A stretch of 64,000 bases of DNA from NCBI GenBank assembly GCA_020161395.1, contig JAIUOE010000007.1, positions 1-64,000 of the forward strand. The letters run 5' to 3'. This document shows positions 2,815-34,421 of this stretch, one piece after another (within the stretch, counting starts at the first letter, position 1; the number at the start of each line of letters is the position of its first letter). The notes below the pieces were generated by a model that was not told the DNA's origin, did no database searches, and saw nothing but the letters and a program-made list of their open reading frames with translations. Position numbers and translations under genes: made by a program. This stretch comes from Bacteroidota bacterium. GTDB lineage: Bacteria > Bacteroidota > Ignavibacteria > Ignavibacteriales > Ignavibacteriaceae.

Positions 2815-5800
2815 TTGTACTTATCGAAGCTCGAGATATTAGGATTTAAATCGTTCGCTCAAAAGACTGTAATCCACTTTAACAAGGGGATTACGGCGAT
2901 AGTTGGACCGAACGGTTGCGGGAAGACTAATATAGTCGATGCTTTACGCTGGTGCATTGGGGAACAGAAATCCTCAGTTCTCCGCTCCGACAAGATGGAG
3001 AATGTTATTTTCAACGGCACTTCTGCCCGAAAACCGCTCGGAATGTCGGAGGTGGCTCTCACAATTCAGAATGACAAGGGGATTCTTCCTGTCGATTACA
3101 CAGAAGTGATCATTACACGAAGAATTTTCCGTTCGGGAGAGAGTGAATATCTTTTAAATAAAAACATCGCCCGTTTGAAGGATATAACCAGTCTTTTCAT
3201 GGATACCGGCATGGGGGCAAATGCTTATTCAGTCATCGAATTAAAGATGGTTGAATCGATTCTCAGCAACAAGGCTGATGAACGAAGAACTATGTTTGAG
3301 GAGGCTGCCGGGGTAAACAAGTACAAAATCAGAAGAAAACTTACTTTAAAAAAGCTTGAAGAGGTAAGATCAGACCTCTCAAGAGCGAATGATCTTATTT
3401 CTGAAATCGAGAAAAAAGTAAATTCACTTGAGAGACAGGCGAAGAAAGCTGAAAAATATCAGCAGCTCGCAAACCGGTTAAAAGAAATAGATATGAAATC
3501 GGCAGCCTGCGACCTCTTCGTGATGCTAAATGAACAGGCGGTTTGGCAGCAACAGCATTTCGACGCCACAATTCAAAAAAATGAAATTGAGATAACTCTC
3601 AGCAGGCTGGACGAGATTTTTGCGGGAATTCGTGAGAAAACCTATATCACCGAAAATGAGCTTAAAGAAACAAGAAAAAAAATCAGTGCTCAGACCGAAT
3701 TGATTTACAAATCAGAGCGAAATATCTCAGTGGCACAGGAGTCACGCCGTTCGCTCGAGAATAATATTAAAAGGTTTGAGTCGGAGATTACCGAATTCGA
3801 AAATCAGATTGAGGAATCAGAGGGAAGCCTTGAGGATTTAAACTTCGATCTGGATGAGAAGAATCTTGAAGAAGAGAAGCTGGTTGCAGAGATTGCCGCG
3901 GTTAAGAATGAAGTGGAAGAGAAAAGGGGAAAACTCTCGGAAGCAAGGGAAAGCATAAAGCTGTTTTCTGCATCTGTTCTTTCGAAGGTACAGGGCTCGG
4001 CAGAGCGGAAGAACGAGTTGAGCAACCTCGAGAAATCGCTCATCAGAACCGGACAGACATCTCAGAAGAACGCCGGTAGATTGAACATTCTAAATGAATC
4101 GATTTCCAAAAACTCGGCATTTCTTTCAGAGATTAATTCTGAAATTGCCGAGACTTCCGATAATCTCAGGAATGCTGAAACCGTTTTTAATGAGACCACT
4201 CTGAAAAAAGAAGCTCTCGAGAAGGAACTCGACAATCTCAGGGAAGAGGAATTTGAAATAAAATCATCCATTAATGATTTGAAAACCAGAATCGACTTCC
4301 TCAACGATCTGATTAACAATCTCGAAGGTTTTTCGCTGGCTTCAAAAAAGCTAATGGAAGACAAGTCATGGTCGGGTGAAGAAAAGAGATTGATATCTGA
4401 TTTCGGAGAACCCGTTGATGAATTTAAGTTTGCTGTCGAGGCTGCTCTAAAAGCTAACTTTAACAGTTTCATTGTCTCCGAAGTATCCGAGGTTGAGGCA
4501 GGCATCAATCTTCTTCTTTCATCGAACAGCGGAAAAGCCTCTTTCATCGTAAAACTGGATACGACTGAAAGAGCAAAATCACTGGTTGATAAAATTGCCA
4601 GGTTTGCAAGCAAAAGAATAGTAAAACGGCTTGCAAATGAAGAGGGATTTGTAGATTTTGCTCACAGACTGGTGAATGTGCCCGTGGCATACGAACCATT
4701 TTTCGAACTGCTGCTGGCAAATGTTGTGGTTGTAAAAAATCTTTCGGCTGCACTTCGACTCGCAGGCAGATATTCAGGTTTCAGATTCATTACACCTGAC
4801 GGGGATATTGTCGGTGACAACGGGTCAGTGGAAGCGGGTTCCCGCCTTAAGGATGAGGATACTCTGTTCGGAAAGAAGACTCAGCTTGAGAACCTGAGGA
4901 AGGGAATAAAACCGCTCGAGGATCAGCTTGGAGCATTGAAGCAGAAGATATATTCAGTGGAATATGATCTTCATCTTATCGATCTGAAAGATATGGGAGA
5001 TGCGATAAGGATATATCAGAATGACCTGATGCAGTTGGAGAAACAGGCTGCGCAGCTCGAGTTTGAAGTGAAAAAGGCTTCGGAAGAAAAATCACTTCTT
5101 GATTCAGAGGCGACCACACTCAATGACCAGATGTCACAGCTTGAGAGTGAGATATCCCGGCTAAGAACTGAAACCGCTGAGGACGACAAGCACAAAGAAG
5201 AAACTGCTGCAAAACAGAGAGAACTTGAAACGGTCACGCTCGAAACAGAGAAGGAATTCAATGTTTCATCGCGTGAGTACAATCAAAAAATACTGGATCT
5301 CGAAAGAGTAAAAGGGGAGAAGAAGAACTTCGTCAACTCAATCGAACGGGTAAGTCAGTCGCTTATTTCATTGAAGAACTCGATCGAGAGAAGAAGAAGG
5401 GAAATTGAAACAGCCCGGACGGAAATAGAGATTCTGACGGGAACAATTGAAGACGGCGAATTTGATCTTGAGGAGCTTAAGCAGGCAAGGGAGATTCTTC
5501 GGGGGAAAGAGAAAGAGATAGAAACCGTTTATTTGCAGGAGCGGGAAGAACTCGATAATCTTGAGAAGGAAAAAACCTCCATCAGGAAAAATCGTGATAA
5601 AATAAGTGAAGATCTGCATCGATCGGAACTCAAGTATAACGAATATACTATCAACATAAAAAACCTCAAAAGAAGGATAAACGAGAAATATGAACTTGAG
5701 GTCAGTCCGGTTGAGCCAACAGAGGAGGAACTCGAACAGCTTGACGGGTGGCGTGCCGAAGTAAGGGAAATTGAACACCAGCTTCATCAAATCGGTCCTG

Positions 5801-6421: not shown

Positions 6422-8362
6422 ATGAGACCACTAACAACGATTTTTATAATCTGCATTCTCTTTTCAGGATTTAGAGCGGATGCACAATGGAATCCCGACC
6501 CCAACTCGCCGAAACAGATTGTTACTGCATCCGTATCGCCACAGAATATCTATCCTGTAAAGAACGGAAGTGAAGGGTTTTTTCTCGTCTGGGAAGACAA
6601 ACCTGCAAACGGGAAATCACGCATTCTCTTCAATCATTACAACTTAAGGGGAGAAGTGGCGAGAACTGCAAACGGGGTTGAGACTGAAGGAGTGATAAAT
6701 TCGCAGACATCTCCGAAAGTTACCCAGTCGATTTCCGGCAGAATTTCCGTAATATGGTCTGAAGAAACCGAGCCCGGGAAAACTGCGTTGCTCATGCAAC
6801 AGGTTAATTCACGGATAAATTTTTTGTGGACTGACAGAAGCGGCAAGGAAATAACCACGGCAGCAGCCGGCAACATTTCCGAATATTCCGTGGCACTCGA
6901 CAGGAGAATGAATACACAGATTGCATGGATCGAGAAGAGCAGCAATCCTTCGGGTTATTCTGTAATGGTGCAGCGGGTCGATAAAAACGGGAATTTGAGC
7001 TACGGTGACGGCATTAAAGTTGAGAAGGGAAGCTATCAAAAATCATCCCTCAAAATTCTGACCGGCTCAAATGGCGGAGCCTCGGTCTGCTGGATTGATG
7101 CACAGGGGGGAAGCTCTCTGATAAAATTTGCAACAATCGACTCCACCGGGAAAATGCAGGGTGATGTTTCAGTGCTTGCGAGTGTTGAGGGTATACTCAA
7201 GACGATGGATATAGTAACCCTTTCCTCGGGCGATCACTATCTCGTTTGGGAAACTGCAGGAAAAACGAGAGAAATTTTTCATCTGCTTGTTAATGCAAAA
7301 GGTGATGCAAAATGGGGCAAAGGCGGAAGACAGGCTGTCTCAAATCAGGGGGTTAATTCATCACCCGTTGCAGTTGAGGGGGGTGACTCGACAATAGTAA
7401 TATCCTGGATTAATGAACTTAACGGTGACGAAAACATTTTCCTTCAAAAATTTGACAGGAAGGGAACTGCTGTTTGGGGTATCAACGGCGTTACGATCGG
7501 GAGTATAAAAGGGAGACAGTTTGCTCAGGCACTCGACTCTGACAAGTCTGGAGGAATTTATATAACCTGGCTCGACAGAAGGAGTGGCAAAGCAGAGATT
7601 TATGCTCAAAAGCTAAGTCCGGCAGGCAAGGAAGAGTGGGATGAAGAGGGTGTGCCGGTATCCAAAACCCAAAGCCCTGAAAAGAGTTACCTGGATATTT
7701 TCTTCGACTCGAAAGATGGTGCCATCCTGATCTTCAAAGAGAAAAATAAAAAGGACGAGGGCATTTTTGGGCAAAGACTTGCGGGAGTTAGACCAAAGGT
7801 TCAGGGAATCGTGGAGGCATGGCTCTCAAATAATGAGGATGAAGTAAAGATCAGTTGGACAGCGACGAACGAGAAAAATGTAATCAGCTATTTCATTCAC
7901 AGAATGGAACCTCGCGGGAAGGATACTGCGTGGACAGAGATTGATAATGTGGTCGCACATCCAAATGCACAAGGCTCTTACTATACATTTGATGCTCCTG
8001 ATAATGAAGGGAAACTCGTATATAGAATTACACAGATATCGAAAGATAACAAAGTCGTCTCCCAAAAAATGGTGGAAGGTGAATTTACAAGGAAAACCAG
8101 TCAAAAAATCTATGTTTCACAAAACATTCCGAATCCTTTCTCGGGAGAGACAACCATTGCTTATAATGTGACTGGTGTCCCTGTTGTTAAATTCGAATTT
8201 TTTGATTCAAATTTTAAACTTGTGAAAGAGGAATCGATAAAAGTAGTGAAAGAAGGCAAGAGTGCATATGTCTTCAAAGCCGAAGGGCTTAAACCCGGCA
8301 TCTACTTCTACCGTTTCACTGCAGGCACATATGTTGAAGTAAAAAAGATGGCGATTATTTAG
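6422..8362 (+). CDS. Secreted propeller-like protein with type IX sorting domain
   Basis: A 646-residue exported protein of unknown function. A signal peptide (1-22, ending ADA-QW) is followed by seven or eight repeats of about 54 residues, each centred on a V/I-x-W-x-[ED/D] strand (VWED, IWSEE, AWIEK, CWIDA, VWETA, SWINE, TWLDR near residues 55, 110, 167, 222, 274, 327 and 380). This spacing suits a seven- or eight-bladed beta-propeller. Residues about 460-555 look like a fibronectin III-type domain. The last 80 residues are a type A Por sorting domain (QNIPNPFSGETTIAY, then GLKPGIYFYRF), so it should cross the outer membrane by type IX secretion. ATG at 6422 has AGGAG ten bases upstream. 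It lies 13 bases after smc. Confidence 0.85.
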   Translation: MRPLTTIFIICILFSGFRADAQWNPDPNSPKQIVTASVSPQNIYPVKNGSEGFFLVWEDKPANGKSRILFNHYNLRGEVARTANGVETEGVINSQTSPKVTQSISGRISVIWSEETEPGKTALLMQQVNSRINFLWTDRSGKEITTAAAGNISEYSVALDRRMNTQIAWIEKSSNPSGYSVMVQRVDKNGNLSYGDGIKVEKGSYQKSSLKILTGSNGGASVCWIDAQGGSSLIKFATIDSTGKMQGDVSVLASVEGILKTMDIVTLSSGDHYLVWETAGKTREIFHLLVNAKGDAKWGKGGRQAVSNQGVNSSPVAVEGGDSTIVISWINELNGDENIFLQKFDRKGTAVWGINGVTIGSIKGRQFAQALDSDKSGGIYITWLDRRSGKAEIYAQKLSPAGKEEWDEEGVPVSKTQSPEKSYLDIFFDSKDGAILIFKEKNKKDEGIFGQRLAGVRPKVQGIVEAWLSNNEDEVKISWTATNEKNVISYFIHRMEPRGKDTAWTEIDNVVAHPNAQGSYYTFDAPDNEGKLVYRITQISKDNKVVSQKMVEGEFTRKTSQKIYVSQNIPNPFSGETTIAYNVTGVPVVKFEFFDSNFKLVKEESIKVVKEGKSAYVFKAEGLKPGIYFYRFTAGTYVEVKKMAII

Positions 8363-24818: not shown

Positions 24819-26024
24819 ATGAAAGTATTAGTATTAAATTGCGGCAGCTCGTCGATCAAGTATCAATTCTATGATACTGTTCAAAGGGTTGCACTCGCAA
24901 AAGGTCTGGTTGACAGAATCGGAATGTCGGGAGCTGTGCTCACTCACATCAGGTATGATGGTGACAAGATTAACATAGTTGGCGAGATTCTCGATCATGC
25001 AATCGGTATAGAGTATGTTCTTGCTGTTCTTCTCTCCAAAAATCACGGAGTGATAGAAGATAAAAGTGAAATAGACGCCGTCGGACACAGAGTTGTGCAC
25101 GGTGGTGAGACCTTTGCAGGTTCTGTTCTTATTACGCAGGAAGTAATTAAGGTTTTACAGGATAATGTCGGTCTGGCACCACTTCACAATCCACCAAACA
25201 TCAAAGGTATTCAGGCTGTCACGAGAGTGCTTCCGAATATACCACAAGTTGGTGTTTTTGATACTGCTTTCCATTCCAAGATGGAGCCAAAAGCATATCT
25301 GTACGGAATCCCGTATGAGCTTTACAAGAGTCATCAGATTCGCCGGTATGGTTTTCACGGTACTTCGCACAGGTTTGTAGCGGGCAGGGCAGCAAAAAAG
25401 CTCGGGAAACCATTGAATGAGTTGAAGGTGGTAACTGCTCACCTCGGAAACGGATGCAGCATGGCTGCAGTCGATCATGGCACTTCGGTTGATACCTCAA
25501 TGGGATTTACTCCCCTTGAAGGACTTCTTATGGGTACAAGATGCGGTGATATTGATACATCAATCATCCTGCATATCATGGGTAAGGAAGGATTACAGCT
25601 TTCTGAAGCCAACACCCTTCTCAACAAACACAGCGGTCTCGTTGGTATCAGCGGTGAGTCATCCGACATGCGTGAAATTATCTCGGCAATGAAAGATGGT
25701 CACAAACGCTCGAAGTATGCTTTTGATGTCTTCTGTTACAGAATCACAAAATATGTCGGTGCCTATGCAGCGGCAATGGGTGGAATTGACGCCCTCGTAT
25801 TTACGGGTGGTATCGGAGAGAACTCTCCGGATGTCCGTTCCGCAGTCTGTAAAAGTCTGAAGTTCATGGGTATGGATATTGACGAAGCAAAAAATGCCGC
25901 CGGTGATGAAGATATCTCTCCCGAGGGCTCGAAAGTGAAAGTTTTCAGAATCCCCACAAATGAGGAACTTGTAATTGCTCTCGATACAGAAGTAATTATC
26001 AAGGGAATCGAAGTGGATATCTGA
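24819..26024 (+). CDS. ackA: Acetate kinase
   Basis: AckA, 401 residues, converts acetyl phosphate and ADP to acetate and ATP. It starts with VLNCGSSSIKYQ and carries GHRVVHGGE (about 88-96), FDTAFH, RRYGFHGTSH (about 172-181), AHLGNGCS and the C-terminal VFTGGIGENS. All match family motifs and length. No pta gene is near. Co-orientation and 6-base spacing with the hydroxyacyl-CoA dehydrogenase suggest a shared role in fermentative acid formation. Transcription ends at a strong hairpin downstream. Confidence 0.97.
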   Translation: MKVLVLNCGSSSIKYQFYDTVQRVALAKGLVDRIGMSGAVLTHIRYDGDKINIVGEILDHAIGIEYVLAVLLSKNHGVIEDKSEIDAVGHRVVHGGETFAGSVLITQEVIKVLQDNVGLAPLHNPPNIKGIQAVTRVLPNIPQVGVFDTAFHSKMEPKAYLYGIPYELYKSHQIRRYGFHGTSHRFVAGRAAKKLGKPLNELKVVTAHLGNGCSMAAVDHGTSVDTSMGFTPLEGLLMGTRCGDIDTSIILHIMGKEGLQLSEANTLLNKHSGLVGISGESSDMREIISAMKDGHKRSKYAFDVFCYRITKYVGAYAAAMGGIDALVFTGGIGENSPDVRSAVCKSLKFMGMDIDEAKNAAGDEDISPEGSKVKVFRIPTNEELVIALDTEVIIKGIEVDI

Positions 26025-26081: not shown

Positions 26082-26142
26082 GTGGCTAAATGGACTCATG
26101 AATAAGATGATTTAATAACTTAATGTCTTGAGAAACCAAGTT

Positions 26143-27120
26143 TTAATTCGAGAAGTCCATATAGTAATTTTCATCATCAATTTTGTAAAAGGTCACATTA
26201 TCCCTGCCGTATCTTTTAAGGTCTGCATTTTGGATGAATGCACCTGAGGCAACCCCAAGCCTGTTTCGAAAGTACTCTCCTAACAAGCTGTTGTTATGGG
26301 GTGTATGAATAGCTGCACCCCAATTGTTCTTTTGAGCCCGTGTGCAGATAAGTGTTTTGCCATCGTCAGTGATAACAGTGAAATGAGTGCCTCTTATTGG
26401 GAAGAATTCACTTTTATAAACTTCAGGCGGAAGTTGGATGTAGGCTTGATTGTGATTCCGCCCACTTCTTTGTCCCCAATTCAATCCACCAACCTTTTGG
26501 ATAATACCGGATTTCGGGATTAATGAAATAGTAATATTCTCAAGACTTTGATTACTGTAATCTGATACCTTCGCTACGGGTAACTTATCCCTCTTTCTTT
26601 TTTGTTTCGGTATTGTGCGCGATGAATCAGTATAAATTAAGACAGAAGTTTCCACATCAGGATGATCACAATAGATAGAGTTTTTTTCTAAATCATTAAA
26701 ATAGTCAAGTGCAATATCCCTGTCACATCCTGCAAGTATCTCCATCTGTTTTAATCCATTAAAAGCCTTCTGTGTGTAATTTGCAGATCCCAAATAGCTC
26801 TGAACAGGTCTGCCGTCTTTAAGCCATATATACAATTTGGAATGGACCGGGGGTAAATTTTGAAGATAGCTACACTGGAAGCAATCTTTGAAAATATCCC
26901 CCATTATTTTTTTGAAGCCTTTATGTCCGGTTAATGAGATTCCCTCTTGAGGAGTCATTCCGACAATTAGATTTACCTTAATATTAAGATTCATATCTGA
27001 TAGAACACTTAAATGTCTAAATGCCATAGCTGGTGTTGCGTATCCGGAAACAATCCTTAGTTCGTCTGATATTTGAGCCGGCTTAATCAGTACCTCTTCA
27101 AATAGTGCTGTCGTAATCAT
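26143..27120 (-). CDS. NgoFVII-like type II restriction endonuclease (PLD fold)
   Basis: Restriction endonuclease of 325 residues. The N-terminal half is a phospholipase D-type nuclease with a single HSK...GSANYTQ motif (His93, then Lys two residues on; GSAN about 21 residues later), so it should work as a dimer as BfiI does. The C-terminal half resembles the DNA-recognition part of the NgoFVII family (GLNWGQRSGRNHNQAYIQLP, then FFPIRGTHFTVITDDG, then LGEYFRNRLG). NgoFVII itself cuts at GCSGC; the target here is not known. I chose ATG at 27120, with GAGG just upstream; TTG at 27132 is the other possibility. It follows the methyltransferase by 17 bases on the same strand. Confidence 0.85.
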   Translation of the reverse strand: MITTALFEEVLIKPAQISDELRIVSGYATPAMAFRHLSVLSDMNLNIKVNLIVGMTPQEGISLTGHKGFKKIMGDIFKDCFQCSYLQNLPPVHSKLYIWLKDGRPVQSYLGSANYTQKAFNGLKQMEILAGCDRDIALDYFNDLEKNSIYCDHPDVETSVLIYTDSSRTIPKQKRKRDKLPVAKVSDYSNQSLENITISLIPKSGIIQKVGGLNWGQRSGRNHNQAYIQLPPEVYKSEFFPIRGTHFTVITDDGKTLICTRAQKNNWGAAIHTPHNNSLLGEYFRNRLGVASGAFIQNADLKRYGRDNVTFYKIDDENYYMDFSN

Positions 27121-27137
27121 ATAACCTCGCAAAATGT

Positions 27138-28295
27138 TTAAACTATATTAATTTGATCAAAGAGGTTCAATTCCACATCTTTGGAAAACCTTAATCCGAA
27201 AAATCTTTTTTTATGGTTATCATGGATGAGAGGATTAATGTTATTTGGTACCCAGTCATATTCGACACCTGCAAAACTTTTGAGAATTGCTTCAAATATT
27301 ACTTGTGCTCCTCTTGCAGGAACTGCCATTCCGATTTGTTTCCGCACACTTTCCTTCGATCCAATAAAAACAAAATCATCAGGAAAAGTCTGTATTCGAG
27401 CCCTTTCTCTATTTGTTAGAGCACGGTCTTCCTGCCAATGGTAAACATGTGTTCCCCCTCCACCACTCCCGGTAATCGTATAACTCGGTTTGTCAGGGAC
27501 CAATCTTTTATAAATTTGACTTATTTGGGCGGCTTTCACATTAAGCCGGAGATTTTCCGGAATATTGGCTGTAAATGCATTTTCACCAGGTTTTATATGC
27601 TTTAATCTTTCAATTACTTGTTGAGATTGCCGGGTAAGCTCATTATTGGTGGCATCAAGTTGAATAGGTGGATTTTCTATAGCATTCTTAACGGATATAT
27701 CAATTTTTCTAAAAGGCCGGGTTGATGGGACACGATACACGACATCTAAGTCTTTTCTTATACCTATAATAAGAATTCTTTGCCGATTTTGAGGAACACC
27801 ATATTCATTAAATTTATACAAGTGTGGATAAACGGAATAACCCATATCGTAAAATGTGGAAAGAATTTTTTTGAATGCATCACCTTCATTGGCATTTTTT
27901 AATCCAGCAACATTTTCCGCTAGAAACCATTTAGGTTGAAATATCTCCATGGTTTTTGCGCCGTATGAATAGAGTGGCCCATAAACACCATCCATTCCTT
28001 TTTGCTCACCCACTATACTAAAATCATTGCATGGGAAACCAAATCCTAGGGCATCTATTTCGGAAATTTTGCGAAGAGAGGCGATGTCTAATTGTCGAAT
28101 ATCTTTACATACAACACTCTTCGGATTTTCGGGACAAATATTATATGTATAAGTCAGGCATGAATCACGATCATAATCGGTTGACCAGGCATGCTCAATA
28201 CTGAATTCCTCGTTGTTATGAGACAATTTAGCAGACTTTGCAGCCAATCCTAGTCCACCAGGACCGCAAAACAACTCACCGAATTTAAATTTCAT
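27138..28295 (-). CDS. DNA (cytosine-5-)-methyltransferase
   Basis: C5-cytosine methyltransferase of 385 residues that protects host DNA from the adjacent endonuclease. Motif I FGELFCGPGGLGLAA (about 5-19) binds SAM, motif IV has catalytic Cys89 in GFPCNDFS, motif VI is AENVAG with Glu127, motif VIII is QNRQRILIIG, and motifs IX-X (RERARIQTFPDDFVF; QIGMAVP) are at the C-terminus. The residue after the catalytic Cys is Asn, where nearly all relatives have Gln. It comes first in the restriction-modification operon, so protection is made before cutting. Its AT-rich codon use differs from the flanking housekeeping genes, suggesting transfer. Confidence 0.93.
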   Translation of the reverse strand: MKFKFGELFCGPGGLGLAAKSAKLSHNNEEFSIEHAWSTDYDRDSCLTYTYNICPENPKSVVCKDIRQLDIASLRKISEIDALGFGFPCNDFSIVGEQKGMDGVYGPLYSYGAKTMEIFQPKWFLAENVAGLKNANEGDAFKKILSTFYDMGYSVYPHLYKFNEYGVPQNRQRILIIGIRKDLDVVYRVPSTRPFRKIDISVKNAIENPPIQLDATNNELTRQSQQVIERLKHIKPGENAFTANIPENLRLNVKAAQISQIYKRLVPDKPSYTITGSGGGGTHVYHWQEDRALTNRERARIQTFPDDFVFIGSKESVRKQIGMAVPARGAQVIFEAILKSFAGVEYDWVPNNINPLIHDNHKKRFFGLRFSKDVELNLFDQINIV

Positions 28296-28511
28296 AAAAA
28301 ACTTTCAAATTGAATACCGAATCTAAAAAAAATGTCCGTAACTATCAATGTTAGAATTACTGCCGAGAAACTAATGTATCATTTCTCTGCAATCGAATGA
28401 GTAGAACCCTGATCAATCTATCATTCGATACAATGCATTTGCAATTACCAAAATCGAAAGACCAAAAGGTTCTATACTTATGATACGACATATCAAACTG
28501 ATTAAATATGC

Positions 28512-28598
28512 ACAAATAATATATTTTAAAATACATTATTTATACCATTTTGTCGAAATAAGATAAAATTTAAGATTTTATGAGATTATTTTGGGTGT
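28512..28598. repeat. 87-bp direct repeat, copy A
   Basis: This copy matches 30197-30283 at 85 of 87 positions in the same orientation; differences are A/G near 28562 and G/A near 28582. It lies downstream of the ATPase gene and upstream of the methyltransferase gene (both minus). It contains a near-perfect 26-bp palindrome at 28515-28540 and is followed by a run of T. Confidence 0.95.
28515..28540. promoter_or_regulatory. 26-bp palindrome in repeat copy A
   Basis: The sequence reads AATAAT-A-TATTTTAAAATA-C-ATTATT: a palindrome with one mismatched pair, centred on TTAA. The same palindrome occurs at 30200-30225. It could be an operator or simply AT-rich symmetry. Confidence 0.4.
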
Positions 28599-28751
28599 TT
28601 TTTTTTTTTTTCGGTTTGTTTTTGTCGGAATGAAACTCAATGTTATTGATTAAAAATTTTCAGAACAATGAACTTATATTCTCCGGGTTCAATCCCGGGA
28701 AGATCACTTCAAAGAGATTAAATCTGGCAGTGTCTGAATTATCTTAAAAAT

Positions 28752-30182
28752 TCAGAAGCCTGCAGAGTAGGCAAACAGGGAAGCAGGCACAAACTTAAGA
28801 TTCAGCCCTCCTGATTCATTCGCACCGGTTTTGTCGATTGTGGTGACGAGAGCTTCATTTAGATTATTTTTTTTGCAAAACAGTGACAAACTTTTCAATT
28901 CAGACGGGTTGTTGAAATACCGGTTACTCCATTTGATTTCAATTGCGAATTTTGGTTTTAGCTTAAAGTCATCAAGCAAAACCAGATCCACCTCGCCGTT
29001 GCTCCTGCCCTGACTCCACCTTGCATAATAAGGTTTGATCCCGTCCTTATAAAACAACTGTGACATGACAGCAGTTTCAACCATGTTGCCGAACGAATCA
29101 TCCATTTGTGATACTGGTGTGAAAAGGGCACTTCTCAAAGAGGGGTTCGTAAGATAAATCTTATAGAAGGTTGCCCTCCTGAATTTTTTCCCTGAATCAT
29201 CAACTCTGTTTAAAATTCTGATGAGAAATGCAGCTTCAAGATACTCGAGGTATCTCTTGAGGAGATTTTTATCGACGCCACTTGTTGAGCTGAGACTTTC
29301 CAAAGAAAGTTCATTTCCTGAATTGTAGGCGAGTGTTGTGAAAAAAGAGTTAAGTTCCTGAACATCCCTTATGCCATAGAGACCCGGCAAGTCACGGAGC
29401 AGGACTTTATCGATAATATCGCTTTTAATATATCTTCCCGGGTCAGACTGAATCCTTTTACTGAAAATGGCTTCAGGATAACCGCCGAAATTTATGTAGT
29501 TTATAAACTGCCGGTTTAGTTCACCTAAATTGGGCGAGGTGAATCCGGTGTTTGGAAATGCAAGACTGTCGTCACTAATTTTTTCAACCAGATAATCAAG
29601 ATTCAGAAGGGTAAGGTACTCCCGGAAAGAGAGTGGGGGGAGCTTAAAATCAGTGAATCTGCCGGCACCGCTTTCCATGCTTTTTAACTTAAGGGCAGCT
29701 GAAGCTGAGCCGGAGACAATGAATTTTGTTTGAGGATAGCTGTCGACCAACGATTTTAAATGGACTTCCCAGTCTTTCAGGTACTGAATCTCATCGAAAA
29801 AGATGAGGCATCCTTTCGGTTCTTTTCTGCCGCTTGCTTTGAGAGAGAGATGAAACAACTCTTCAAGCCCTCGATAGTTGTATATCGGGTTTTCAATGCT
29901 AATATAGAAAATTTGATTGGGGGGTATTCGTTGTCTCAGCAATTCACTTATTGACTGGTGCATCAAAACTGTTTTCCCAACCCGCCGGGGTCCCATAAGG
30001 ATAACCGCTCTTCTGACAGAAGTTTCTTCAACCAAAGCCTGGAAATCAGAGAAATGAAGCCGTTTATCAAAAGTGACAAAGAATTCGGAGGGTCGCCCGG
30101 TTGTCCACCACGGATTTTCGAATTGAAGTCGTTGAATAATCAACTCTTCAGATACCAGATTAAATCGGATTTTTTTATTCAT
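28752..30182 (-). CDS. AAA family ATPase with DUF4143 domain
   Basis: ATPase of 476 residues. The N-terminal AAA part has Walker A GPRRVGKT (about 65-72), Walker B CLIFFDEIQ (about 125-133), sensor-like VSGSAS, and the LPPLSFREYL segment typical of the DUF4143 group. The middle is winged-helix-like (TSGVDKNLLKRYLEYLEAAF). The C-terminal DUF4143 part has NGEVDLVLL...KFAIEIKWSN, a D-x(n)-E-x-K arrangement like PD-(D/E)xK nucleases. The role of this family is not settled; members are often multicopy and may act in defence or mobile elements. ATG at 30182 was chosen; an upstream TTG-type extension would reach into the 87-bp repeat. Copies of that repeat flank the gene on both sides. Confidence 0.85.
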   Translation of the reverse strand: MNKKIRFNLVSEELIIQRLQFENPWWTTGRPSEFFVTFDKRLHFSDFQALVEETSVRRAVILMGPRRVGKTVLMHQSISELLRQRIPPNQIFYISIENPIYNYRGLEELFHLSLKASGRKEPKGCLIFFDEIQYLKDWEVHLKSLVDSYPQTKFIVSGSASAALKLKSMESGAGRFTDFKLPPLSFREYLTLLNLDYLVEKISDDSLAFPNTGFTSPNLGELNRQFINYINFGGYPEAIFSKRIQSDPGRYIKSDIIDKVLLRDLPGLYGIRDVQELNSFFTTLAYNSGNELSLESLSSTSGVDKNLLKRYLEYLEAAFLIRILNRVDDSGKKFRRATFYKIYLTNPSLRSALFTPVSQMDDSFGNMVETAVMSQLFYKDGIKPYYARWSQGRSNGEVDLVLLDDFKLKPKFAIEIKWSNRYFNNPSELKSLSLFCKKNNLNEALVTTIDKTGANESGGLNLKFVPASLFAYSAGF

Positions 30183-30189
30183 AACACTG

Positions 30190-30197
30190 CAAATATA
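30190..30197 (-). promoter_or_regulatory. Possible -7 promoter box of the ATPase gene
   Basis: Read on the minus strand these bases are TATATTTG, an exact fit to the Bacteroidota TAnnTTTG box, ending seven bases before the ATG. Transcripts from it would be nearly leaderless. It lies at the edge of repeat copy B and is absent at the matching place beside copy A. No clear -33 partner is seen. Confidence 0.35.
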
Positions 30198-30283
30198 CAA
30201 ATAATATATTTTAAAATACATTATTTATACCATTTTGTCGAAATAAGGTAAAATTTAAGATTTTATAAGATTATTTTGGGTGT
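30197..30283. repeat. 87-bp direct repeat, copy B
   Basis: Second copy of the repeat at 28512-28598, beginning 14 bases upstream of the ATPase start. The distance between copies is 1685 bases, so gene plus one repeat form a unit that recombination could excise or duplicate. It contains the 26-bp palindrome at 30200-30225. Confidence 0.95.
30200..30225. promoter_or_regulatory. 26-bp palindrome upstream of the ATPase gene
   Basis: Identical to the palindrome at 28515-28540. Its edge is 17 bases upstream of the ATPase start codon, overlapping the expected promoter, which suits an autoregulatory operator. Confidence 0.45.
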
Positions 30284-30448: not shown

Positions 30449-30874
30449 ATGGCTTCAATTCAAAAAGGTTCACTCGTGACGATGCATTATACCGGCACCT
30501 TTGCAGACGGCGAAGAATTTGAGACATCGTACGGTAAAGAACCACTCGTTTTCAGGGTTGGTAACAATGAAATCATCCCCGGATTGGAGCTTGCAGTCCT
30601 TGGGATGGAAGTTGGTGAGAAAAAGGATGTGGCAGTTCCCCCTGAGCTTGGTTACGGTGAATATCGTGACGCTCTGGTGGTGGAGGTGCAGAGAGCCCAG
30701 TTGCCCGATATGGAGGTGGAACTTGGAGACCGGTTGGAACTCGATGGAGAAAATGGTGAAAACATAATCATGACAGTAATAGAATTGAATGATGAAACCA
30801 TTACTCTTGATGCCAACCATGACCTTGCAGGAGAAATCCTGAACTTCGCAATAGAAATTGTGGAAGTTAAGTAG
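30449..30874 (+). CDS. SlyD-like FKBP-type peptidyl-prolyl isomerase
   Basis: Cytosolic proline isomerase/chaperone of 141 residues. FKBP segments (VTMHYTGTFADGEEFETSYG, NNEIIPGLELAVLGMEVGEK) flank an inserted-flap chaperone domain (about 67-120) that begins after ELGYGEY, the SlyD layout. The histidine/cysteine-rich metal-binding tail of E. coli SlyD is missing, so nickel delivery is unlikely. ATG at 30449 is preceded by AGAGAATAAA. It lies alone between the accessory island and a secreted protein gene. Confidence 0.9.
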   Translation: MASIQKGSLVTMHYTGTFADGEEFETSYGKEPLVFRVGNNEIIPGLELAVLGMEVGEKKDVAVPPELGYGEYRDALVVEVQRAQLPDMEVELGDRLELDGENGENIIMTVIELNDETITLDANHDLAGEILNFAIEIVEVK

Positions 30875-34044: not shown

Positions 34045-34073
34045 TTGCATTTAAATTAAAAAAATCTTACTTT
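34045..34073 (+). promoter_or_regulatory. Promoter candidate for the tRNA-secE-nusG cluster
   Basis: TTGCAT (34045-34050), 17 bases, then TACTTT (34068-34073) followed by AG, close to both the -35/-10 and the TTG/TAnnTTTG patterns. It lies 42 bases before tRNA-Tyr. TTGACT at 34037 is an alternative upstream box. Confidence 0.45.
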
Positions 34074-34115
34074 AGAAGTCCCTTTCAGAAAAATTCTGGA
34101 ACGGAATCGATAGTT

Positions 34116-34199
34116 GGGCGGACGCCGAAGTTGGAGAGTCGGGGCGGACTGTAAATCCGTTGGCTTACGCCTTTGGGGGTTCGAATCCCTCGCCGCCCA
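34116..34199 (+). tRNA. tRNA-Tyr (anticodon GTA)
   Basis: Class II tRNA of 84 bases without encoded CCA. Acceptor GGGCGGA/GCCGCCC, D stem CCGA/TCGG, anticodon loop CTGTAAA, long variable arm (GGC TTAC GCC core) and T arm GGGGG TTCGAAT CCCTC are all visible, with A73 and G1-C72 as expected for tyrosine. Odd points: position 8 is C where U is nearly universal, and A7 faces G66. Confidence 0.93.
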
Positions 34200-34216
34200 C
34201 AAAAGGATGGAGAATT

Positions 34217-34288
34217 GCGGGAGTAACTCAGTGGTAGAGTCACAGCCTTCCAAGCTGTTGGTCGCGGGTTCGAGTCCCGTCTCCCGCT
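34217..34288 (+). tRNA. tRNA-Gly (anticodon TCC)
   Basis: Cloverleaf of 72 bases: acceptor GCGGGAG/CTCCCGC, discriminator T, anticodon loop CTTCCAA, T arm GCGGG TTCGAGT CCCGT. CCA is not encoded. It lies 17 bases after tRNA-Tyr, as in the Tyr-Gly-Thr cluster of many bacteria. Confidence 0.96.
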
Positions 34289-34300
34289 CTGAGACAAAGC

Positions 34301-34337
34301 AATGAAAGTGAGCCATTGGCTGCTTTCATTTTTTTTA
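34301..34337 (+). terminator. Hairpin with T run between tRNA-Gly and tRNA-Thr
   Basis: AATGAAAG (34301-34308) pairs with CTTTCATT (34323-34330) around a 14-base loop, AGCC/GGCT being able to extend the stem inside the loop, and TTTTTT follows. This is a fair intrinsic terminator, so tRNA-Tyr and tRNA-Gly may end here while some read-through feeds tRNA-Thr, rpmG and secE. Confidence 0.6.
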
Positions 34338-34348
34338 TGTTTAATTAA

Positions 34349-34421
34349 GCTGACGTAGCTCAGTTGGTAGAGCACATCCTTGGTAAGGATGAGGTCATCG
34401 GTTCAATCCCGATCGTCAGCT
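34349..34421 (+). tRNA. tRNA-Thr (anticodon GGT)
   Basis: Cloverleaf of 73 bases: acceptor GCTGACG/CGTCAGC, discriminator T, anticodon loop TTGGTAA, T arm ATCGG TTCAATC CCGAT. The 60-base spacer from tRNA-Gly has AATGAAAG...CTTTCATT (34301-34308 and 34323-34330) followed by TTTTTT, which can form a hairpin and may attenuate transcription. Confidence 0.96.

Follow-up and report, generated by a model that had tools for sequence, protein, structure and literature searches.

In the window (the whole stretch of DNA analysed, 64,000 nucleotides from the genome designated here G000), a DUF4143 ATPase gene lies between two direct copies of an 87 bp sequence that forms most of its own leader. We propose that the gene and its palindromic leader constitute a single-gene mobile unit, which would have been inserted with a long target duplication. 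Judged from the sequences compared below, this reading is given a probability of roughly 0.55. The organization of the region, together with the presence of the flanking genes in the congeneric genomes G001, G002 and G003, is as follows.

24819–26024, plus strand: ackA (acetate kinase), the left neighbour, kept in G001, G002 and G003.
26093–28504, minus strand: Type II restriction-modification pair, with an NgoFVII-like endonuclease (26143–27132) and a C5 methyltransferase (27138–28295).
28512–28598, minus strand: repeat copy 1 (cp1), which duplicates the ATPase leader at +154 to +240 past the stop codon, in direct orientation to cp2.
28599–30196, minus strand: inter-repeat segment of 1598 bp, with the ATPase as the only gene recognised inside.
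28752–30182, minus strand: AAA_14-DUF4143 ATPase of 476 aa, PADLOC PDC-S01, from Pfam domains and PDC-S01 models.
30197–30283, minus strand: repeat copy 2 (cp2), which lies in the ATPase leader, −101 to −15 before the start codon.
30449–30874, plus strand: FKBP-type peptidyl-prolyl isomerase, the right neighbour, kept in G002 and G003.

The two copies are in direct orientation with a spacing of 1685 bp and are identical at 85 of 87 positions, in agreement with the original prediction, which had described two 87 bp copies with two mismatches bracketing the DUF4143 ATPase gene. Within cp2 are found an imperfect palindrome (AATAATGTATTTTAAAATATATTATT) and a CTTATTT site. The search of the complete G000 genome (4.07 Mb, 21 contigs) with the 87-mer gave no copies beyond cp1 and cp2, so that the further copies looked for upstream of other DUF4143 ATPases are not present; the other matches were inverse self-matches of the palindrome within each copy. 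Weak matches in G014 and G020 were dismissed, as they covered about 30 bases only and lay beside unrelated ORFs. An assembly artefact is unlikely to be behind the repeat pair, because G003, a separate assembly, carries the same two repeats around its orthologous ATPase gene (88% identical protein). The G003 copies show 15 differences in 86 positions and three gaps when compared with each other, and in the alignment of the four copies from G000 and G003 a single column divides both cp1 from both cp2. The presence of the pair in both genomes is most simply explained by an origin before their split. The recent duplication first supposed is thus probably wrong, and the near-identity of the two G000 copies (2 differences in 87) suggests that gene conversion or constraint has acted on them.

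A lack of variation among strains would have counted against the original prediction; the ackA–FKBP locus does differ between congeners. The restriction-modification pair between ackA and cp1 is present in G000 alone; in G003 it is missing and the ackA side abuts cp1. In G000 the pair itself abuts cp1, and a short AAATG-like similarity is visible by eye at the edges of this segment (26093–28504). In G002, ackA and the FKBP gene are present with no ATPase match between them, and the spacer contains one leader-like sequence, which is a diverged copy of the repeat: its score was 48, as compared with 25 ± 3.4 for shuffled sequences, and was reached by 0 of 300 shuffles. The reverse strand of the spacer also matched the repeat (score of 41, reached by 2 of 300 shuffles) as would be expected of a palindromic repeat. 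The ackA gene of G002 is only about 73% identical to that of G000, and at such a distance the single copy may be the remnant of a loss. A cassette able to loop out, one of the options put forward at the outset, is the one which best fits the G002 locus, although the divergence of the leader-like copy leaves room for a remnant. In G001, where the 87-mer gave no match, ackA is directly followed by DNA matching the window from 34019 on, which means that the ATPase and FKBP genes are missing there. Just inside that part of the window, two mechanical ORFs on the minus strand (34056–34375) overlap opposite-strand tRNA-Tyr, tRNA-Gly and tRNA-Thr genes and are probably spurious.

The bracketing was then counted in two sets of DUF4143 genes, neither of which included the window's own ATPase gene. 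The family set of 85 genes consisted of the G003 orthologue and 84 genes hand-picked among the matches listed, a choice which favoured long ORFs and complete genomes and avoided contig ends. The named-record set, made of close homologues, comprised the best 80 of 239 loci, reduced to 78 by the omission of L202 and L226, which had short flanks. Direct repeats of at least 40 bits between the two flanks, a threshold fixed after the first family-set repeat results, were found for 27 of the 85 family genes as compared with 6 of 185 further ORFs from these loci, and for 16 of the 78 named genes versus 3 of 178 control ORFs, the controls being neighbouring ORFs and not matched accessory genes, which is a caveat against the mobile-unit reading. 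When each side was required to have a spacer of 100 bp or longer, in a count that kept 83 family and 76 named genes, the proportions were 22/50 versus 3/55 and 14/51 versus 1/62, respectively. At a threshold of 100 bits they were 11/85 versus 2/185 and 6/78 versus 0/178. The bracketing events are fewer than the genes, since L181 shares 99% identity with L191, and L065 is the orthologue of L066.

The repeats of the 43 bracketed genes measured 25–395 bp. The record titles of bracketed cases include Bacteroidota, Deltaproteobacteria, Elusimicrobia and Zixiibacteriota. Inspection by eye of 41 of the 43 inserts revealed no shared motif at their ends, which counts against the mobile-unit reading. 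Some of the repeats had several pieces within their own locus (eight for L098, five each for L063, L069 and L185), and such multi-piece repeats may be ordinary dispersed repeats. The largest control repeat, of 220 bits, was situated in L098, the locus with the eight-piece DUF4143 repeat. The upstream repeat copy overlapped the leader (−1 to −110, by at least 25 nt) in 7 of the 43 bracketed genes only, which speaks against the mobile-unit reading.

The leader itself can be recognised at other loci. The 110 bp leader of the window aligned in register with the leaders of homologous ATPases in 27 of 84 cases at z > 3, and the same test on the downstream regions gave 1 of 84, so the repeat makes up the greater part of the leader of the ATPase gene itself. 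The shared control region considered in the original prediction holds to this extent; the part that failed was its extension to a gene family, since none of the genome's remaining DUF4143 genes carries the repeat, and several of them possess separate palindromes. The leader parts in common across loci were a site of the CTTATT type and a palindrome that adjoins TATATTTG, an element similar to the Bacteroidota −7 promoter box. TAAG...CTTA pairs, a motif picked after the leaders had been viewed, occurred in 44 of 86 leaders of the subfamily (shuffle mean of 8, maximum of 14 in 60 shuffles), and downstream of the genes they were not enriched (7 of 82, shuffle mean of 10). Upstream palindromes beating all 40 shuffles were present in the family set for 30 of 78 DUF4143 genes and 6 of 107 control ORFs, and in the named set for 22 of 73 and 7 of 117, respectively; downstream of DUF4143 genes the count was 9 of 85. 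Locus L136 (G011:C18) shows two tandem DUF4143 genes with differing upstream palindromes. On the Acinetobacter seifertii plasmid pAs1069_b, a TAAGATC...GATCTTA palindrome (L242:3900–3992) is located just upstream of a homologue that is 51% identical and lacks bracketing direct repeats of at least 20 nt. A second plasmid match to the ATPase extends to the end of its record.

The extent of homology was examined in 48 pairs of genes with at least 78% identity. Seven pairs aligned for more than 300 bp past the gene, and in the other 41 the alignment was confined to the gene ±300 bp; pairs sharing their genomic place align far past the gene, at 80–91%. The edges were scored in the 40 of these 41 pairs with enough sequence, which involved 33 genes, so that pairs share genes. 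The 3' edge of homology was situated at a median of +1 from the stop codon (25 of 40 within −15 to +5, range −25 to +43) and the 5' edge at a median of −52 from the start codon (range −143 to +36). L198 and L200, for example, are 90.7% identical from −130 through the stop codon. This limitation of the homology to leader and ORF across unrelated sites suggests that the unit of movement is the leader plus the ORF. Against this, a faster divergence of non-coding DNA would also end the homology at the stop codon, but the pairs sharing their place do stay alignable well past the gene.

In four of the 43 bracketed loci (L112, L129, L082 and L076), the repeat corresponded to the 3' end of a neighbouring ORF, which was intact on one side of the DUF4143 gene and present as a fragment on the other side. 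The host ORFs encode 361, 410, 188 and 814 aa, respectively, and the first three are presumably, by their sequence, YchF, LhgO and a methyltransferase. The fetched stretches of relatives contained a single copy of the gene end (G058 and G069 for L112, G047 for L129, G009 for L082), and in a third L112 relative (G075) the gene end gave no match. The two copies were 95.8%, 91.7% and 90.4% identical to each other in L112, L129 and L082, and each was 79–88% identical to the copy of the relative, which indicates that the duplication occurred after the lineages had diverged. Against the mobile-unit reading, none of G058, G047 and G009 offered a clean empty site for these three loci: the far flank of L112 was not found in G058, the L129 site in G047 is occupied by 7.5 kb of other DNA, and the two flanks of L082 are on different contigs in G009.

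The comparison of G000 with G003 revealed differences in DUF4143 genes at four further loci (L085, L083, L084 and L090). At the L085 locus, G003 shows a near-exact deletion of the ORF, of which approximately the last 15 nt are left; an insertion reading of this locus was dropped, as the retained ORF end marks a deletion. The loss did not take place by repeat recombination, and in this respect argues against repeat-mediated excision. At the L083 locus (compared with L240), the leader palindrome is found without the gene in G003, and the other flank is not homologous. In the comparisons of L084 with L239 and of L090 with L238, the spacer repeats persist and are followed by other genes. The gene-free leaders and the L085 deletion imply that leaders can outlive their genes and that not every loss uses repeats. 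In L238 (G000:C1, reverse complement, approximately 6790–8000), the place at which G003 has a DUF4143 gene is taken by a 299-aa ORF, Mrr-like as judged by eye, and by the upstream repeat in a tandem array. In L089 (approximately 3798–4567), G000 has an extra stretch of about 770 bp that is missing from L093 of G003, immediately upstream of an orthologous DUF4143 gene.

The start codon of the ATPase is placed at 30182 rather than at 30221, where the mechanical ORF call begins within the cp2 repeat, because homologues start there in the alignment consensus. Both Pfam domains of the protein are above the curated cut-offs (AAA_14, 115.1 bits for a cut-off of 27; DUF4143, 79.6 bits for 28.1), and seven PDC-S01 models match, the best with an E of 1e-55 over residues 57–453, the PADLOC library giving no cut-off for them. 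In an alignment of 35 sequences, made of the window ATPase and 34 of the 80 named-record loci, the Walker A motif around G64–T71, the Walker B residues D130–E131 and the C-terminal nuclease-like residues E397, D399, E415 and K417 (D...ExK motif) were invariant in 35 of 35. The AlphaFold model (pLDDT of 86.9, pTM of 0.87) resembles in fold CED-4, Cdc6/Orc1 and other STAND/ORC ATPases, and two of the Orc1/Cdc6 matches are DNA complexes according to their entry titles. No nuclease fold was present among the 50 fold matches listed, and the search of solved structures with the ATPase sequence gave no match at E below 0.05. Phage records contained three partial matches, with 26–29% identity. The number of DUF4143 genes per genome ranged from 0 to 12 and 47 of 61 genomes were positive, among the matches listed. 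By its sequence, the gene is of a kind filed as a candidate for virus defence. The protein, with its AAA+, winged helix and nuclease-like domains, may have a part in the binding of the palindrome or in the movement of the gene.

In the model that we propose, the unit would have entered the ackA–FKBP spacer, most simply before the separation of G000 and G003. The entry would have duplicated approximately 87–92 bp, here leader sequence, leaving the gene between two direct copies, and entries elsewhere would have duplicated other DNA, such as the 3' end of a host gene in the four loci described above. Recombination between the two leaders would then take the gene out and leave one leader behind, which is the state of G002. 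Since the DNA duplicated here is the leader, the integration could have occurred into an older leader. It is from the present-day arrangements that we infer movement, including excision and the direction of change at the ackA–FKBP locus. An extended form of the model, in which the DUF4143/PDC-S01 ATPases are self-moving single-gene elements whose protein binds its own leader palindrome, used both as operator and as integration site, and cuts the target with a wide stagger to yield duplications of tens to hundreds of bases, appears rather doubtful to us.

The repeat pair might alternatively be the remnant of a tandem, in which a leader-ATPase-leader-ATPase arrangement arose by duplication and lost the second ORF while keeping its leader. 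Losses of about one ORF do occur, as seen in the L085 deletion and in the L083 palindrome without a gene, and tandem DUF4143 genes exist in L136, but the palindromes of these tandem genes are different, the distance from ackA to cp1 in G003 is a few dozen bases only, and searching the G000 genome at the protein level detected no second ATPase piece on the window's contig. Such a remnant would also leave the duplicated host-gene 3' ends of other loci unexplained, and we regard it as unlikely. It is quite improbable that the gene landed between pre-existing repeats, in a repeat-rich spacer or a hot spot, without any duplication. The persistence of spacer repeats at sites that lack the gene or have another in its place (L084 versus L239, L090 versus L238), the bracketing repeats with more than two pieces per locus and the many matches in G009 to other parts of the L082 flanks would be expected from such a landing, but the 87-mer has two copies only in the G000 genome, and at the three loci with one copy in the relative, the two copies are nearer to each other than to that of the relative.

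A local duplication of an operator, kept for regulation without mobility, for example with the ATPase bound at each end of its own gene, would account for the recurrence of the leader motif in distant homologues (44 of 86), for the fold shared with Orc1/Cdc6 and STAND ATPases and for the conservation of the pair in two species. The absence of enrichment of the motif downstream of the genes and the small proportion of bracketed genes with a repeat copy in the leader (7 of 43) are opposed to it and make it very unlikely. Insertion of a mobile leader-plus-ORF unit with duplication of the target is the reading that we retain.

The proposed unit would share with IS elements and classical transposons the insertion with target duplication, and differs from them in that the window segment has no transposase gene, the ATPase being the only gene recognised. 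The target duplications of IS elements are usually a few bases long; here the repeat is 87 bp, and 25–395 bp in the 43 genes, with no common ends seen by eye. Closer to the present case, insertion with long target duplication is described as a mode for restriction-modification genes (Nobusato 2000; Furuta 2010; both as cited in the accessible parts of PMC3874152 and PMC3031569). There too, a gene-sized insert is flanked by long and variable direct repeats, which in the restriction-modification case are derived from the target and of the order of 100 bp (PMC3874152, in part). The insert is a restriction-modification system there and one gene of another protein family here, and the DUF4143 unit has its own palindromic leader, which in some loci is the repeated DNA. 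An Arabidopsis study (PMC2869330), going by its title, deals with transposed genes that carry flanking repeats, a case of moved single genes in a plant genome.

In the accessible part of PMC12988326, PDC-S01 is described as an ATPase fused to a PD-(D/E)XK member and as the fourth most common defence across prokaryotes, with validation pending for most such candidates. The window protein is similarly an ATPase with a putative PD-(D/E)XK member, matched by the seven models. The same part of that paper treats PDC-S01 as a putative single-gene defence which transfers across domains, and leaders, repeats and the mode of insertion go unmentioned in it. Repeats or leaders were likewise not mentioned in the portion of the literature on DUF4143 or PDC-S01 that was covered, most subscription journals being outside its scope. 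The DUF4143 ATPase family presumably corresponds to COG1373. This COG is listed among horizontally shared genes in the part of PMC10782964 consulted.

If the units do travel with their own leader, the spread of PDC-S01 genes would need no defence function, and the unit of leader plus ORF would be directly testable for mobility. If the ATPases were indeed self-moving elements, their abundance and their placement in defence islands would reflect mobility at least partly, rather than defence. Travel as single units would also carry long target duplication beyond restriction-modification systems, into another large family of genes.
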